DNA of 64,000 nt from positions 124,001-188,000 of the forward strand of contig CALXMP010000004.1 of the NCBI GenBank assembly GCA_944389505.1, in the 5' to 3' direction. Origin of the DNA: an uncultured Spirochaetaceae bacterium. Its GTDB lineage: Bacteria > Spirochaetota > Spirochaetia > Sphaerochaetales > Sphaerochaetaceae. This document shows, piece after piece, positions 53,539-60,073 of the stretch. Under the pieces are notes generated by a model. That model saw nothing but the letters and a program-made list of their open reading frames with translations. It was not told the DNA's origin and ran no database searches. Both the position numbers and the translations under genes were made by a program. Within the stretch, counting starts at the first letter, position 1, and each line of letters begins with the position of its first letter.

Positions 53539-54573
53539 TCAGCTTCTGAACGGATCGAAAGGATACTCTCCCCTTATCCTATCATAGATCCCATAGGAAT
53601 CGGATGGAACGGATACAGGTTCACGATCCAGGCCGAATACCTCAGAGACCCTCGTGCCGAATATCGCAGAGAGACGGTCCTCACCGCATCCTGCTTTTCT
53701 GAGTCTATCGGCAAGGAGCAGCATGCCTGGAAGACCGGGGATTCCCGATGCGCCTTTCTCCTTGTCCTCGATTGTATGCGGAGCGTGGTCGGATTCAGCC
53801 CAGTCGATCGTACCATCGACCAGCGCCTTGAAGACAGCATCCCTGTCAGCACTGCTTCTCAGCGGAGGATTCATCTTGAGGTAGCGGTCATGCTCCTTTG
53901 CGTCAGTTACGGAAAGAAGCGCATGATGCGGCGTTGCGCCCATCGTTATCCTCATCCCGCTCTTTCTGAGCTCACGTACAAGCTCTATTGTGCCGGCACT
54001 TGATACATGGCATATATGGAGCGTTCCTTTGAAACCGGTCTCCGCAGCAATTGAAGCTATATCGCGGACACTCTCCGTCTCAGCCTCTGCTGGCCGTGCC
54101 TCAGAGTGCGTCTCAAACCTGCCAGGAACATACAGCTCCTTCCTGAGAAGCTCCTCCTTCTCGGCATGGACGGCAAGCACCCCGCTGTACCCGGATTCAG
54201 AAAGCGCCCTGAAGACCTTTCTCTGGTTATCAGGGCCTATTATTCCCATATTCCCCGTGCTCTGGCCAGCAAAGAGCTTCAGGCCTATCACCAGCGGAAA
54301 GAGCTCCGAATGGAGATCGACCATTGCCTTTATCTCATCGGGATCGGACGTAAGCCCTGCATAGAGATGATACGATACACCTGTCCTCTCCTCTGCCTCG
54401 CTCCCAGCTGCGAGACGGTCAAGGATAACACTCCTCGAAGTGCATGCCGGATCGGTATTCGGCATATCGAAAAGATCTGTGAAGCCAGCTGCAGCAGCAA
54501 CGCTCATGCCATGGAGGATGGTCTCCTTGCTGCTCTGCTTCCAGTCCCTCAGGTGAACATGGGGATCTATCAT
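53539..54573 (-). CDS. pyrC: Dihydroorotase
   Basis: A 344-residue amidohydrolase that closes carbamoyl aspartate to dihydroorotate. It has the metal motif DPHVHLRDW at the very N-terminus, GFTDLFDMPNTDP, histidines in LHICHVSSAGT and GATPHHALLS, and the catalytic aspartate in WAESDHAPHT. The start (54573) overlaps the pyrDK stop by ATGA; an upstream extension has no family similarity. Last gene of the pyr operon. Confidence 0.93.
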   Translation of the reverse strand: MIDPHVHLRDWKQSSKETILHGMSVAAAAGFTDLFDMPNTDPACTSRSVILDRLAAGSEAEERTGVSYHLYAGLTSDPDEIKAMVDLHSELFPLVIGLKLFAGQSTGNMGIIGPDNQRKVFRALSESGYSGVLAVHAEKEELLRKELYVPGRFETHSEARPAEAETESVRDIASIAAETGFKGTLHICHVSSAGTIELVRELRKSGMRITMGATPHHALLSVTDAKEHDRYLKMNPPLRSSADRDAVFKALVDGTIDWAESDHAPHTIEDKEKGASGIPGLPGMLLLADRLRKAGCGEDRLSAIFGTRVSEVFGLDREPVSVPSDSYGIYDRIRGEYPFDPFRS

Positions 54574-56237
54574 AGGACAGCTCCGTTTTCCTTGAGAGTC
54601 TTCCATGTGAAGAATGTGCCTTCCTTGCATGGCAGATGGCCTCCGCAAACGCACTCACCGCACATTCCTATGCCGCACATCGTATTCTTCTCCATGGAAA
54701 GGTAGATCCTGTCTGCAGGGAATCCCATCGCTTCTGCCTTCTCCGCAGCCTTCTCCATCATCTTCCCGGGGCCTACCACATAGAGCGCTGTATCGCCTGC
54801 AAGGTCGGATGGAACGATTGAATCGAGAACGCGGCCCGGCTTGCCATCATCAGGGACTGACATATAGCTGCCATAGGAAGAGAGAACATCCTCAAGAGGA
54901 TCCTTCCCCTCTTTTCTGACAACGCCGACCCTTATATCCATCCTGGTTCCATCAGCACTCAGCTTCTCTGCAATGAGAGGAAGGACAGCAGCTCCTGTGC
55001 CTCCGCCGATAAGAAGAGCCCTTTCCGTCTTCTCATAGACCATCGGACGACCATAGAGTCCTCTCGTATAGATCGTATCACCGGGTTCTATTCCGAAAAA
55101 TGCCGATGTGAATATGCCACGCTTCTTGATAAGGAATGTCAGAGGCTTGTTCACTGCAACGGAGAACGGCTTCTCACCCATTCCTGGGACCCATATGAAG
55201 ACAAATTCACCAGGATTGCATCCGACTTCCCCTGAAACGGTGATGACCATCACATCGTCACCATGCATCTCCTTCGTAAGCACCTTGTGCGGCGTATACT
55301 CCATGGCATTGCCAGAGAAAAGATAGGGAGATGTGTCGCCACCAGTTTTAAGGGCGTGGAAGAAGTTCTCGTAGTCTGAAGGCATGACACGGGACAGTGC
55401 AGATCCGACACCGACGCTGTCTGCTCCGGCCTCAATCATCATTCTGGCATCATCATATGAGGAGACGCCGCCCATTCCGAGGATGATCGGATCATCCCCG
55501 ATTGCATTCCTGATTGCCTTGATGCATCTGATTGCATCATCCTTCACCCACTCTCCTGATGCTCCGCCCTTTCCTCCAAGCTTATTGTTGAGGATGGGGG
55601 CACCGGAATGAGGCTCGATATAGAGCTTAGGTCCCACTGTATTGATGGCGGCAATGCCATCAGCCCCAGCCTCGATGACAGCCTTGGCAATTCCAGCTAT
55701 ATCATCGGCATTAGGGGTCAGCTTTATGATAAGAGGTGATTTCCTCTCCGGATATGCTTCCTGTATCCTCCTCACATACTCTGCAGCAGTGGCTTTATCG
55801 CTTCCAATCGAGGCGCCGAAGCCAGCGGCGGCGTGAGGACAGGAGAAATTGAGCTCAAGAAGGTCGGCCAGCGGGTCGAATGCCTTCACAAGCGTAATGA
55901 AGTTCTCGGGGGAATCAGCGGCAAGCGATACATTCAGAAACGCTCTGAGACCACGCCCACGAAGCCTCTTCAGCTCCGCAAGCGCCTCCTCCATTCCTGG
56001 ATTCCTCAGACCAACGGAGTTGCCGAAATCGCCAGGTGCTGGGGAGCAGATAACCGGCTCCCTATTTCCCGGTGTGGGAACAACCTGGAACGATTTTGTC
56101 GTTATGATATCAACAGAGGGGACGTGCTCGTCAAAGAGCCTGATCATCTCCTCCTTTGTCGTAAGGACACCTGAGACAGTCGCCGTTACGATTCTTCCGC
56201 TATCATGGTTCCTTCTGAGAAGTGTCCTTGCATCCAT
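54570..56237 (-). CDS. Fused dihydroorotate dehydrogenase and electron-transfer subunit (PyrD-PyrK)
   Basis: A 555-residue fusion. Residues about 1-300 form class 1 dihydroorotate dehydrogenase: GVLTTKEEMIRLF near the N-terminus, the catalytic cysteine in LELNFSCPHAAAGFGASIGS, then LIIKLTPN and GMGGVSSYDDARMMIEAGAD with FMN-binding glycines. From about residue 310 it is PyrK: FAD domain GEFVFIWVPGMGEKPFSVAV, NAD-binding GGGTGAAVLPLIAEKL, and a C-terminal 2Fe-2S site with four cysteines in MCGIGMCGECVCGGHLPC. The two subunits of type 1B enzyme are normally separate. It is one base after pyrF. Confidence 0.9.
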   Translation of the reverse strand: MDARTLLRRNHDSGRIVTATVSGVLTTKEEMIRLFDEHVPSVDIITTKSFQVVPTPGNREPVICSPAPGDFGNSVGLRNPGMEEALAELKRLRGRGLRAFLNVSLAADSPENFITLVKAFDPLADLLELNFSCPHAAAGFGASIGSDKATAAEYVRRIQEAYPERKSPLIIKLTPNADDIAGIAKAVIEAGADGIAAINTVGPKLYIEPHSGAPILNNKLGGKGGASGEWVKDDAIRCIKAIRNAIGDDPIILGMGGVSSYDDARMMIEAGADSVGVGSALSRVMPSDYENFFHALKTGGDTSPYLFSGNAMEYTPHKVLTKEMHGDDVMVITVSGEVGCNPGEFVFIWVPGMGEKPFSVAVNKPLTFLIKKRGIFTSAFFGIEPGDTIYTRGLYGRPMVYEKTERALLIGGGTGAAVLPLIAEKLSADGTRMDIRVGVVRKEGKDPLEDVLSSYGSYMSVPDDGKPGRVLDSIVPSDLAGDTALYVVGPGKMMEKAAEKAEAMGFPADRIYLSMEKNTMCGIGMCGECVCGGHLPCKEGTFFTWKTLKENGAVL

Positions 56238-56238
56238 C

Positions 56239-57120
56239 TTAGACAGCCGCCTCCTCAAGCAGTTTCCTTACTGCGGACATGACCTGATCAAGCCAGTCGT
56301 CCGGAGCTGCGCCCTTCTTCCAAGGATGGGTAAGGCCGGAAGAGGAGTTGATCCTCGCAAGAGTCCTGTCATAGCCTGCATCGGAGAGCCTCTTCATGAC
56401 CTCCTCTGCGCTGCCGCCCTGCGAACCTACGCCAGGGATAAGCATCGGTATATCCTTACCTGCATAGAAGCGTGCGATGTCCGAGAGCTCATCGGGGCTA
56501 GTAGCTCCTACAACGGCACCAAGTCCCGGATGCTCCTGTGCCCAGCGGGCAATCATATGGGCGACGGACATGTAGAGCGGATAGAGCTCCTTCTCATCGA
56601 TTCTATCGACAACAAGCTCATTCTGAAGCTCCTTAGCTCCGGGATTGGATGTGCGGTTCAGGATATAGACTCCCTTATCCTCATATGCGAACGGGAAGAC
56701 GGAATCGTGGCCCATATAGGGAGAAACTGTAACAGCCGTAGCTCCCCACTTATCGAAAGCCTCAACAGCGTAGTTGCCGCTCGAGCGTGCAATGTCACCG
56801 CGCTTTGAATCGAGTATGACGGGAATACCAGGGAAGTACGTGTCGAGCATATCGAGGATATCCACAAGAGCCAGAGAGCCATCGAAGTTCTCCTCCCTTG
56901 GATTATCCAGCGATGCATAGTACCCGATATTAGGTTTGAATGCTGCAGGTGAAAGCCCCTCAAGCCTCATTCTGCGGAATATCTCGGAGAAATAGCCATT
57001 AAGCCTTTCCCTTATGCCAGCGTCGGACTCCGGCAGCACATCCATCACAGGATCAAGTCCCATGCATACGATGTTCCCAGCCTCGGCAGCGCTCTTTCTC
57101 AGCGTATCGACATAGCTCAT
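56239..57120 (-). CDS. pyrF: Orotidine 5'-phosphate decarboxylase (type 2)
   Basis: A 293-residue TIM-barrel enzyme making UMP. The catalytic K-D-K-D array corresponds to VILDSKRGDIARSSGNYAVE; other landmarks are NIVCMGLDPVMDVLPE and FKPNIGYYAS for the ligand site and GAVVGATSPDELS and LIPGVGSQGG for the phosphate site. This longer form resembles type 2 (UMPS-like) decarboxylases. It overlaps pyrE by TAATG and has GGGAGG upstream of the ATG. Confidence 0.95.
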   Translation of the reverse strand: MSYVDTLRKSAAEAGNIVCMGLDPVMDVLPESDAGIRERLNGYFSEIFRRMRLEGLSPAAFKPNIGYYASLDNPREENFDGSLALVDILDMLDTYFPGIPVILDSKRGDIARSSGNYAVEAFDKWGATAVTVSPYMGHDSVFPFAYEDKGVYILNRTSNPGAKELQNELVVDRIDEKELYPLYMSVAHMIARWAQEHPGLGAVVGATSPDELSDIARFYAGKDIPMLIPGVGSQGGSAEEVMKRLSDAGYDRTLARINSSSGLTHPWKKGAAPDDWLDQVMSAVRKLLEEAAV

Positions 57121-57818
57121 TACCTTACCTCCCTTTTCCAGCCTCTCTTCTCGCCCCATCCGAACGGATCCTCCCTCCATTCATGGAGAGCTTCGGCATC
57201 GGAAGCGGAGATATATCCTGTCTCAGCTGCGGTCGCAACCATCACATCGTATGAAAGGATTGTATGAAATACACAGGCAGGATCGAGGGCGGCAAAGGCA
57301 TCCTCTGCTGTCTTGAATCCATATGTGAATATTGCAAGGCAGAGATTGCAGACGCCATCTGCCTGGCGGACAGCCTCGACAGCCTTGAGGGAGGAGGAGC
57401 CTGTGGAGATGAGATCCTCGATTAGAAGGACATTCTTGCCCTCGTATGAGCCATTTCTGCCAAGACCCTCGATCTGATGGCCAAGGCCATGGTCCTTGCT
57501 GGAGGAACGAACATATGTCAGCGGCTTGTAGAGCATATCGGCAAGGCTTGTGGCATGAGGAATGCCAGCAGTTGCCGTTCCCGCGATGTTATCTGGGTTC
57601 ACACCAAGCGATGAGAGCATGTCAGCAAACGCATCGCGGATGAGCGCCCTGTACTTAGGCATAGCAAGGAACTGCCTGTTGTCATTGTAGATCGGCATCC
57701 TGTAGCCTGAAGCCCAAGTGAATGGGTCGGAAGGAGATAGCCTGATCGCGCCAAGCTCAAACGCTCCCTTTGCAAGAAGCGGACCATAATATCCTGTTAT
57801 TTCTGTCAATGTCTTCAT
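57120..57818 (-). CDS. pyrE: Orotate phosphoribosyltransferase
   Basis: A 232-residue type I phosphoribosyltransferase that adds orotate to PRPP. The PRPP loop is VLLIEDLISTGSSSLKAVEA and the catalytic loop region is TYVRSSSKDHGLGHQIEG. It lies 19 bp after pyrBI and is coupled to pyrF. Confidence 0.95.
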   Translation of the reverse strand: MKTLTEITGYYGPLLAKGAFELGAIRLSPSDPFTWASGYRMPIYNDNRQFLAMPKYRALIRDAFADMLSSLGVNPDNIAGTATAGIPHATSLADMLYKPLTYVRSSSKDHGLGHQIEGLGRNGSYEGKNVLLIEDLISTGSSSLKAVEAVRQADGVCNLCLAIFTYGFKTAEDAFAALDPACVFHTILSYDVMVATAAETGYISASDAEALHEWREDPFGWGEKRGWKREVR

Positions 57819-57837: not shown

Positions 57838-59424
57838 TCAGTGCTTTTTCCAGATTTCCTTGAACGAATGGAAGCGTCCGCAGTATGCGCAGGCGAAATG
57901 CCCGTCAGGCGTTCTGTAGAATGATGCGGGTACGCCCTCTCCGTTCACAGGATTCGATATGCATGCCTCATTCTGGCAGCAGAGATCATCGAAATTGTAG
58001 ATGCGCGGAGGCATGTGTGTCCTGTACTTCTCAAGGACCTTTCCATCCTTGATTATATTAAGCGTGCAATGCGGCGCGATTGCGGCAAGACGCTTCAGGT
58101 CCTTGCGCTCGAACTCCCTTGCACCCGGACGGAATATTATTCCCTTGTACTTGCCATCGGCACCGGAGGAGACCCACTCACCGCCCCTGGAATCATCGAG
58201 TCCGAGAACCGATGAGATAAGGCGCATATGATTCCTTATATCACCCGGATCATCGCCTTTGCAGATATGGTCGATGACTATTCCATCGGTGATGGGACGA
58301 ACACCCTCGGAGTAGTTCTTCTCCTTCTTCTTCTGGGATGGCTCGACCTTTATGATGTACTCCTCGGTCTTCCTGTCATCATCATGCTCGCCAGGAACAG
58401 GAATATAGTCATCGCCGATCCTTCCTCCGATTAGCGAGAGAAGCACGATTCTGCAGTACATGCCGTTTATAGCCTGTCTCTCCCATGCATTGAGAGGTGT
58501 CTTGTCGAGCCAGGTAGGAATCGTAGGATGCTCCTTGTGGCGCGGAAGCGGATGATAGAACTTCGTATTCTCCTTCAGAAGTGGCAGGAAATCGCGTCTG
58601 AATGTGATAGCTGAGCGGAGCATCTCCTGCTTCTGGAGTATCCTCTCACCCATTCTCTCAAGCTGCGGTCTTGTGAAATACCAGAGCCTTGCAGGATTGC
58701 CAGCTGCAAGATATTCATCGATTGATGGGTAGAGTGTGACATCAAATCCATTCTCCCTCATCTTCTCTATATAGCTCTCAGGCATCATAAGCTCATCGGG
58801 CGCGATGAGATCGACCTTGACATGATCGAATATCTTCAGCCCATCGGCCTTTGAATGGACGGTGCGTCCATGGTAGAGGTCTCCGACAAGAGCAACATGA
58901 ATCGAATCGAATGACATATCCAGATCCTCAAGGAAGGAGAACTCATCCAGGAGCTCCTGCGTCGGATGCTCATGCTTTCCATCCCCTGCATTTATGAATG
59001 CGGGCCTGTATGGAAGGTGGTTGCGCTCTGCGTATTCGCTGCACTCCTCCGAAAGCCATTTGGTAAGTCCCTCCACCTTGCTGCGGACGATGAATATCGA
59101 ATTATGGTAGCCGGAGAGCATATTGAATGTATCGGCATAGCTCTCTCCCTTGTTGATCGATGAGGATGTCGCAAGAAGCTCCGAGACCTTTGCATGATGG
59201 AACTCAGCGGCATTTCTGAAGGACTCCTTTGTCCTGGTGCTATCCTCGAGGAAGACCTCATAGATACCGAAATCCGGATCATTGATCCTGAAACGGGACA
59301 TTGTCTCCTCATCCCCTGCTTCGATAGCCTTCTTCAGTTCGCTGACCTTTCTGAAGAAATAACGGCGCTCATTGATTGAGAAATCCTCGATGATGTTCAG
59401 AGACCTAGACGCGAAAACGTTCAT
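57838..59424 (-). CDS. Fused aspartate carbamoyltransferase catalytic and regulatory chains (PyrB-PyrI)
   Basis: A 528-residue fusion. Residues about 1-340 form the catalytic subunit: carbamoyl phosphate site FLEDSTRTKESF, HPTQELLDEF, VGDLYHGRTVHS and FYHPLPRHKE. From about 380 it is a PyrI-like regulatory chain: VRPITDGIVIDHIC with the nucleotide-binding allosteric domain and a zinc site of four cysteines in CCQNEACI and ACAYCGRFHSF. Such PyrBI fusions are known from Thermotoga and treponemes. The ATG at 59424 has AAGGAG 6 nt upstream; an alternative GTG at 59430 is overlapped by it. First gene of the pyr operon. Confidence 0.95.
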   Translation of the reverse strand: MNVFASRSLNIIEDFSINERRYFFRKVSELKKAIEAGDEETMSRFRINDPDFGIYEVFLEDSTRTKESFRNAAEFHHAKVSELLATSSSINKGESYADTFNMLSGYHNSIFIVRSKVEGLTKWLSEECSEYAERNHLPYRPAFINAGDGKHEHPTQELLDEFSFLEDLDMSFDSIHVALVGDLYHGRTVHSKADGLKIFDHVKVDLIAPDELMMPESYIEKMRENGFDVTLYPSIDEYLAAGNPARLWYFTRPQLERMGERILQKQEMLRSAITFRRDFLPLLKENTKFYHPLPRHKEHPTIPTWLDKTPLNAWERQAINGMYCRIVLLSLIGGRIGDDYIPVPGEHDDDRKTEEYIIKVEPSQKKKEKNYSEGVRPITDGIVIDHICKGDDPGDIRNHMRLISSVLGLDDSRGGEWVSSGADGKYKGIIFRPGAREFERKDLKRLAAIAPHCTLNIIKDGKVLEKYRTHMPPRIYNFDDLCCQNEACISNPVNGEGVPASFYRTPDGHFACAYCGRFHSFKEIWKKH

Positions 59425-59442: not shown

Positions 59443-59464
59443 AAAAAAAAACCGGTAACACCGG
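59443..59464 (-). terminator. Attenuator terminator upstream of pyrBI
   Basis: Minus strand: CCGGT-GTT-ACCGG (59464-59452) followed by nine T residues, 18 bp before the pyrBI start codon. It directly follows a 38-codon leader ORF, whose stop lies 4 nt before the stem. This is the layout of the E. coli pyrBI attenuator. Confidence 0.8.
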
Positions 59465-59468
59465 CCAA

Positions 59469-59585
59469 TCAATACAAAACTGAATGATTATCCACCATAG
59501 ATCCTGATATGAAACAATCGATAGACCTGCAGCTCATCATCCACCTCTTCCCCTGAGAATAGCAGAAGGATAGGCCGATGTCCAT
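59469..59585 (-). CDS. Candidate pyr leader peptide
   Basis: An ORF of 38 codons beginning ATG-GAC-ATC (59585) and ending TGA just 4 nt ahead of the attenuator stem. It has no Shine-Dalgarno sequence at its first ATG, but tandem ATGs at 59540 and 59537 follow AAGAGGTGG, giving a 23- or 22-residue peptide ending SVLY. A U-rich stretch (GTTTTGTATTGATT) precedes the stem and could be the UTP-dependent pause. Function is inferred from position, not similarity. Confidence 0.45.
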   Translation of the reverse strand: MDIGLSFCYSQGKRWMMSCRSIDCFISGSMVDNHSVLY

Positions 59586-59662
59586 ACAACGGCACAGGAA
59601 AAGGAACTCTTCCAAAGTCTGGACTTTTGCAAAGCCCTCTTTTCCATTTCTTGAAACATTTT

Positions 59663-59953
59663 ATGACTGCAAGCAGTTCGGATATAATTATCTATTTTAA
59701 AATAGACTATTCTAAAATAGAGTATTTTAGGAGTCCAAATACAAAGCGCAGGGATTCATTCGATGTCGATGAGGCCAAGTATCTGTCATCTGCCCTATCT
59801 GAAAAGCTTATGGAAGAGGAAATCGGAAAGATCAAGGCAATTGAGGGAATAAGGATAGGAAGAATTGGCTTCGTCTCATTCTCTGGATTCGAGAAGGAAA
59901 TCGATGGCATTGATGAGATACCAGGAGAAGAACTGTATAGAGAGCTGCCGTGA
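59663..59953 (+). CDS. Doubtful ORF, possible ATPase C-terminal fragment
   Basis: A 96-residue reading frame from ATG 59663 (or 108 residues from 59627). The middle to end (about SFDVDEAKYLSSALSEK through IGFVSFSGFEKEI and EELYREL) loosely resembles the C-terminus of AAA-type ATP-binding proteins common in gut anaerobes. No Shine-Dalgarno sequence is seen, and its N-terminal part is encoded by the 15-bp palindromic repeats. A TATAAT (59683-59688) would start transcription inside it. It may be a gene remnant. Confidence 0.3.
   Translation: MTASSSDIIIYFKIDYSKIEYFRSPNTKRRDSFDVDEAKYLSSALSEKLMEEEIGKIKAIEGIRIGRIGFVSFSGFEKEIDGIDEIPGEELYRELP
59687..59715 (-). promoter_or_regulatory. Candidate pyr operon promoter
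   Basis: Minus strand: -35 TTAGAA (59715-59710), 17-bp spacer, -10 GATAAT (59692-59687). It implies a leader of about 255 nt that contains the leader ORF and attenuator. On the plus strand TATAAT at 59683-59688 overlaps it. Confidence 0.5.
59692..59733. repeat. Tandem 15-bp palindromic repeats
   Basis: CTATTTTAAAATAG (59692-59705, a perfect 14-bp palindrome) is repeated 15 bp on as CTATTCTAAAATAG (59707-59720), and a degenerate third copy GTATTTTAGGAG starts at 59722. They cover the candidate pyr promoter and could be a regulator-binding array. Confidence 0.6.
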
Positions 59954-59989
59954 ACCAAGGACGGCCATACGGCCTTCATCCATGCACAA

Positions 59990-60009
59990 AGCAGGACCGA
60001 AGTCCTGCT
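59990..60009. terminator. Hairpin terminator between convergent genes
   Basis: AGCAGGAC-CGAA-GTCCTGCT, a perfect 8-bp stem. On the minus strand the loop reads TTCG and is followed by TTTGTGC, fitting the HAD-RidA transcript. Confidence 0.7.
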
Positions 60010-60073
60010 CTCTATCGATTGATGTATGCTGTCGGTTCGATTTTTGCGACAGCTCATTTCCTGAGGGGCTTAA

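Follow-up and report, generated by a model that had tools for sequence, protein, structure and literature searches.

A probable translation-coupled attenuator and a covarying ribosome-binding-site hairpin in the pyrBI leader of Sphaerochaetaceae

Introduction

In the genome of an uncultured spirochaete, an intrinsic terminator stands between a promoter and pyrBI, the first gene of a pyrimidine operon, which raises the question of how transcription of the operon passes this barrier. Translation-coupled attenuation of pyrBI is a textbook mechanism of enteric bacteria, and a terminator upstream of a pyr operon is also the usual arrangement under the control of PyrR. In the Escherichia coli pyrL leader, low UTP makes the polymerase pause on a U-rich template, so that a coupled ribosome blocks folding of the terminator, while ample UTP leads to termination (PMC10135430, PMC5021804, PMC4824070). 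A first-pass annotation of the spirochaete DNA had proposed attenuation of this E. coli type. A search of open-access papers turned up no account of pyr attenuation in Sphaerochaetaceae, although an earlier mention may exist. The case bears on whether ribosome and polymerase are also closely coupled beyond Proteobacteria.

Results and Discussion

Organization of the pyr operon and its leader

The host genome is that of a 2.1-Mb spirochaete whose closest named relatives are Candidatus Ornithospirochaeta and Bullifex (Sphaerochaetaceae). The window, i.e. the whole stretch of 64,000 nucleotides that was analysed, carries on its minus strand a pyr gene set in the order pyrBI-E-F-DK-C (Table 1). 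In contrast to E. coli pyrBI, pyrB and pyrI are fused here and are followed by pyrE-F-DK-C. The pyrD-pyrK fusion forms a single 562-aa protein, and the TIGR00857 match to the pyrC-like gene spans G000:C4:177623–178576, corresponding to window positions 53623–54576.

Table 1. Features of the pyr operon and its leader, in window coordinates
Feature	Position	Strand	Basis
-35 hexamer TGGACA of the pyr promoter	59579–59584	-	9/12 promoter match with TG before the -10; TAGACA/TGGACA in relatives
-10 hexamer TATTCT, extended TG at 59564–59563	59556–59561	-	17-nt spacer; conserved in relatives
Leader Shine-Dalgarno (SD) sequence AAGAGGTGG	59541–59549	-	sequence; SD run of at least 4 in 63 relatives with a recognizable promoter
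5' arm of the leader ribosome-binding-site hairpin	59536–59548	-	window fold; cognate-arm test
Leader ORF, 23 codons MMSCRSIDCFISGSMVDNHSVLY, TGA at 59471–59469	59469–59540	-	frame conservation
3' arm of the leader ribosome-binding-site hairpin, just upstream of the terminator	59476–59488	-	window fold, arm test, pairing probability
U-rich stretch GTTTTGTATTGATT, candidate UTP-sensitive pause zone	59467–59480	-	sequence; T peak in relatives
Intrinsic terminator (attenuator), GGCCGGT-GTT-ACCGGTT stem and T tract	59443–59466	-	terminator scan, folding
pyrBI SD AAGGAG	59435–59430	-	sequence
pyrBI ATG	59424	-	sequence
pyrBI, fused aspartate carbamoyltransferase catalytic and regulatory chain	57838–59424	-	NCBIfam PRK13376, E 2.5e-240; Pfam PyrI and OTCace domains
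pyrE, orotate phosphoribosyltransferase, operon gene after pyrBI	57120–57818	-	
pyrF, orotidine-5'-phosphate decarboxylase	56239–57180	-	TIGR02127 above cut-off
Fused pyrD-pyrK, dihydroorotate dehydrogenase and electron-transfer part	54570–56258	-	
pyrC-like dihydroorotase, final gene of the pyr set	53539–54654	-	TIGR00857, E 8.7e-61, under the curated cut-off

Read 5' to 3', the region consists of the promoter, the leader SD, tandem ATGs (59540 and 59537), the 23-codon open reading frame (ORF), the U-rich stretch, the terminator and pyrBI. The transcription start predicted from the promoter spacing, at about 59549, lies upstream of the leader ORF and not downstream of 59464, a location that the first-pass annotation had regarded as incompatible with its reading. 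The hairpin described there, CCGGT-GTT-ACCGG followed by nine T residues (59451–59443) and then by an 18-nt interval up to the pyrBI ATG, is present in the sequence, and the leader ORF stops 4 nt upstream of the CCGGT stem as claimed. The full stem (59466–59450) has a folding energy of -8.3 kcal/mol (z -2.2 versus shuffles). A scan of 9 kb revealed no enrichment of terminator-like matches (5 observed, 5.9 expected); therefore, the significance of the terminator depends on its conservation among relatives. The U-rich stretch of the window is modest, with 8 T in 14 nt.

A leader ORF of 38 codons had originally been favoured. This ORF was rejected, as its ATG at 59585 overlaps the -35 hexamer of the conserved promoter; with a transcript predicted to start at about 59549, it would be absent from the RNA and untranslatable from the pyr promoter. 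In contrast, the short alternative, which begins at the tandem ATGs behind AAGAGGTGG, was retained and comprises 23 codons from 59540.

Conservation of the terminator and the leader ORF

The leader of the window was compared with those of 80 PyrBI relatives with upstream DNA, giving 81 leaders in total. A terminator hairpin with a T tract directly before pyrBI was detected in 78 of them, and in one more (L056) by eye. Most leaders also possess a promoter of the same type upstream of an SD and ATG, with the start 18–30 nt from the -10 hexamer.

To avoid bias in the frame test, the leader start was picked by SD and start codon alone, and a frame was counted as open when it ended no more than 9 nt upstream of the terminator stem or farther downstream. 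Of the 63 leaders with a recognizable promoter and SD, 62 have an open frame 0 by this measure, compared with 13 for frame +1 and 19 for frame +2. A similar outcome was obtained for the 37 leaders that are less than 65% alike, where frame 0 is open in 36 versus 7 and 14 for the other frames (14.4 expected from dinucleotide shuffles), and for a second set from other genomes (16/17 versus 6 and 4). Moreover, when 324 SD-bearing genes on the 81 loci were tested, all 63 combining a terminator with a leader ORF were pyrBI.

The end of the ORF varies in position, being located before the stem in the window, in the terminator loop in the Sphaerochaeta group and over the pyrBI start in L037 and L082. 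Across the leaders it falls just before, inside or after the terminator stem, which is what occlusion by a ribosome needs. The leader peptides are not conserved and differ even among relatives. Judged from these leaders, the conserved property is that a ribosome reaches the terminator, not the sequence of the peptide. Coupling to a ribosome is strongly implied, because the frame is conserved while the peptide varies freely. In addition, the T fraction in 37 representatives peaks at 0.58 at 11–15 nt before the terminator stem, compared with 0.22–0.24 around the leader start. The comparison with relatives suggested in the first-pass annotation thus found the ORF, its end at or past the terminator and the hairpin all kept.

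A second hairpin over the leader ribosome-binding site

Folding the leaders individually revealed a second hairpin that the first-pass annotation had missed. Here, the leader ribosome-binding site pairs with a 3' partner segment located about 10–30 nt upstream of the terminator stem. When 19 leaders aligned with MAFFT were analysed with RNAalifold, the terminator core alone was recovered, with no covariation, because the arms shift register; a permutation test on cognate arms was therefore used instead. Since the arm sequences are species-specific, we asked if the 5' arm of a leader pairs better with the 3' arm of the same leader than with 3' arms taken from other leaders. In 36 representatives, the cognate arms pair at -15.5 kcal/mol versus -11.2 kcal/mol for permuted arms (z -9.3), while z stayed between -1.8 and +1.7 in four control pairings. 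A wider 3' segment gave z -7.2, and z -7.0 when compared with shuffled 3' segments; ten further leaders gave a cognate-arm z of -1.8. The pairing probability reaches 0.53–0.68 at -16 to -30 nt from the terminator stem, compared with 0.16–0.17 after shuffling. In the window leader alone, the pairing of the arms is not significant (p 0.066). The SD core is paired slightly above shuffles (0.76 versus 0.68, p 0.012), so that occlusion of the site is likely, not proven.

This covarying hairpin, which joins the leader ribosome-binding site to the segment just before the terminator, is a new element. It is also a directly testable one with regard to how polymerase speed is read out. Together, promoter, leader ORF, terminator and hairpin are conserved features of the compared leaders.

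Distribution of the leader and of PyrR

The layout is broadly distributed in Sphaerochaetaceae. Outside this family, it was found in three genomes of one genus from another spirochaete family (L192–L194; two show a clear ORF, and in the third it was recognized by eye). It is missing from most of the remaining spirochaete families. Metagenome-assembled genomes of gut Clostridia (L081–L085) contain a fused pyrBI that shares about 70% identity with its spirochaete counterpart, together with a similar leader layout, which suggests that gene and leader moved together between gut bacteria. More generally, that the layout of a mechanism known from enteric bacteria recurs in spirochaetes and in some Clostridia of the gut points either to transfer or to an independent origin.

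Of 138 family genomes, five (G003, G004, G005, G029 and G030) have a PyrR match (NF003549) above the cut-off. In exactly these five, the pyrBI leader has a terminator and no SD-led leader ORF. The five genomes belong to one clade, so the contrast between ORF and PyrR may reflect a single event. Furthermore, three loci of genus g21 (L099, L105 and L108) and several others have neither, and the leader ORF is therefore not universal. For both reasons, the PyrR contrast is to be read as consistent support and not as proof.

The pyrBI loci of the PyrR-bearing genomes (L096, L100, L109, L118 and L119) and the three g21 loci share a distinct region upstream of pyrBI with CAGAGA-type motifs, and several of these regions contain a TACCGGT..ACCGGTA terminator. 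One genome, G013, holds two full pyrBI copies with different leaders, L045 (G013:C8) and L053 (G013:C7), due to either a duplication or a mixed bin.

Proposed mechanism and alternative explanations

We consider it likely that the leader region attenuates transcription of pyrBI-E-F-DK-C in a translation-coupled manner, and most likely in response to UTP. RNA polymerase would start at about 59549, and the leader RNA would be about 100 nt long. If UTP is ample, the polymerase would outrun any ribosome, whereupon the terminator would fold and transcription would stop before pyrBI. With scarce UTP, it would slow down in the U-rich stretch right before the terminator, and a ribosome started at 59540 on the 23-codon ORF could catch up. 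With its 5' side occupied or covered by this ribosome, the terminator could not form and the operon would be transcribed; the sequence of the leader peptide itself would be irrelevant. The E. coli-type attenuation proposed in the first-pass annotation is supported by the leader comparison, apart from the start codon of the longer ORF. We infer UTP as the signal from the function of the controlled genes, from the U-rich stretch and by analogy with E. coli. Such a mechanism would explain how a family largely without PyrR could regulate its pyrimidine synthesis and need no regulatory protein for it.

The order of promoter, SD-led leader ORF, U-rich zone, intrinsic terminator and pyrB is the same in E. 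coli, and the spirochaete leader probably works like the E. coli pyrBI attenuator; common descent is not claimed. By inspection, the spirochaete leader peptides have no sequence similarity to E. coli PyrL. The pyrL ORF (44 codons) covers the terminator, as do the ORFs of many relatives here, whereas the window has a shorter ORF that ends immediately upstream of the stem. Furthermore, the predicted start site lacks the initial T run for reiterative transcription, unlike that of E. coli.

Several other explanations start from the same terminator. In Bacillus and its relatives, PyrR-dependent attenuators likewise place one before the pyr operon, and PyrR does occur in five genomes of the family. 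Under such control, UMP-bound PyrR would bind the leader RNA and favour the terminator, and the leader ORF would be accidental. However, as the first-pass annotation had noted, pyrR is absent here: a profile search of the host genome gave no PyrR at the family cut-off, the best phosphoribosyltransferase matches scoring about 21 bits, and neither the window leader nor the test leaders match any Rfam family at the gathering score, PyrR-type RNA included. A leader ORF is conserved instead, its frame conservation requires translation, and it is precisely the PyrR genomes that lack it, which makes this explanation exceedingly improbable. Nearly as improbable is an amino-acid attenuator, in which a ribosome stalled at codons for a scarce amino acid picks between alternative hairpins. 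The leaders of trp and his operons do combine a leader ORF, a hairpin over the leader start and a terminator, as is the case here. In contrast to them, the spirochaete leader peptides share no run of control codons and are unremarkable in composition (Ser and Leu 10.7% each, Asp 4.3%), while an antiterminator pairing with the terminator was neither found nor required; the signal would presumably be UTP and not charged tRNA. A plain terminator shielding pyrBI from upstream read-through, with a leader ORF that just delivers ribosomes to the pyrBI start by translational coupling, appears very unlikely. It would suit L037, L038, L039 and L082, where the stop codon of the leader ORF either overlaps the start of pyrBI or directly adjoins it. 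However, transcription from the conserved promoter has to cross the terminator to enter the operon, since the promoter is the more upstream of the two. In the window as well as in many relatives, 38–50 nt separate the end of the ORF from pyrBI, and translation thus ends too early for simple coupling.

Within the attenuator model, we infer that the second hairpin either gates ribosome loading on the leader or holds the polymerase for a ribosome. In the first case, a fast polymerase would release the 3' arm, and the hairpin would then close the leader to new ribosomes, leading to repression, while a slow polymerase would retain the arm and leave the ribosome-binding site free. The U peak lies about 10 nt downstream of the 3' arm centre; a polymerase slowed there would still cover most of the arm, and so the site would stay open. 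In this way, leader translation would depend on polymerase speed, and the hairpin would act as the UTP sensor, perhaps hidden in E. coli too. We put this kinetic gate forward tentatively, its chances being somewhat short of even. To our knowledge, none has been described for pyrBI as a UTP sensor on ribosome loading. For E. coli, a pairing between the leader ribosome-binding site and TTCTTCCC is predicted (one sequence, z -2.0), whereas the spirochaete hairpin covaries.

In the second case, the same attenuator would use the hairpin as a polymerase pause hairpin alone, as in trp and his leaders: the polymerase would be held until an initiating ribosome opens the hairpin, which would not close the leader. 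The 3' arm ends about 10–16 nt before the terminator stem, a spacing known from hairpin-stabilized pauses. A hairpin pause of E. coli pyrL is also described in work cited in PMC10135430. However, the E. coli pyrL pause studied in PMC9291695 was neither stabilized by NusA nor rescued by compensatory changes. This role is conceivable, if slightly less likely than the gate; both fit the data, and sequence by itself cannot tell them apart.

Other observations around the operon

Elsewhere in the host genome, carA, a second pyrC and the uracil permease gene were searched for a preceding terminator, and none was found. Two overlapping ORFs on opposite strands, at 59707–60057 and 59627–59953 (116 and 108 aa), have no Pfam match and are not obviously genes. 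Between the ridA-like gene and the pyr promoter, an AT-rich inverted repeat is present at 59683–59729 with 23-nt arms that are 83% complementary; it could be an operator or the terminator of ridA.
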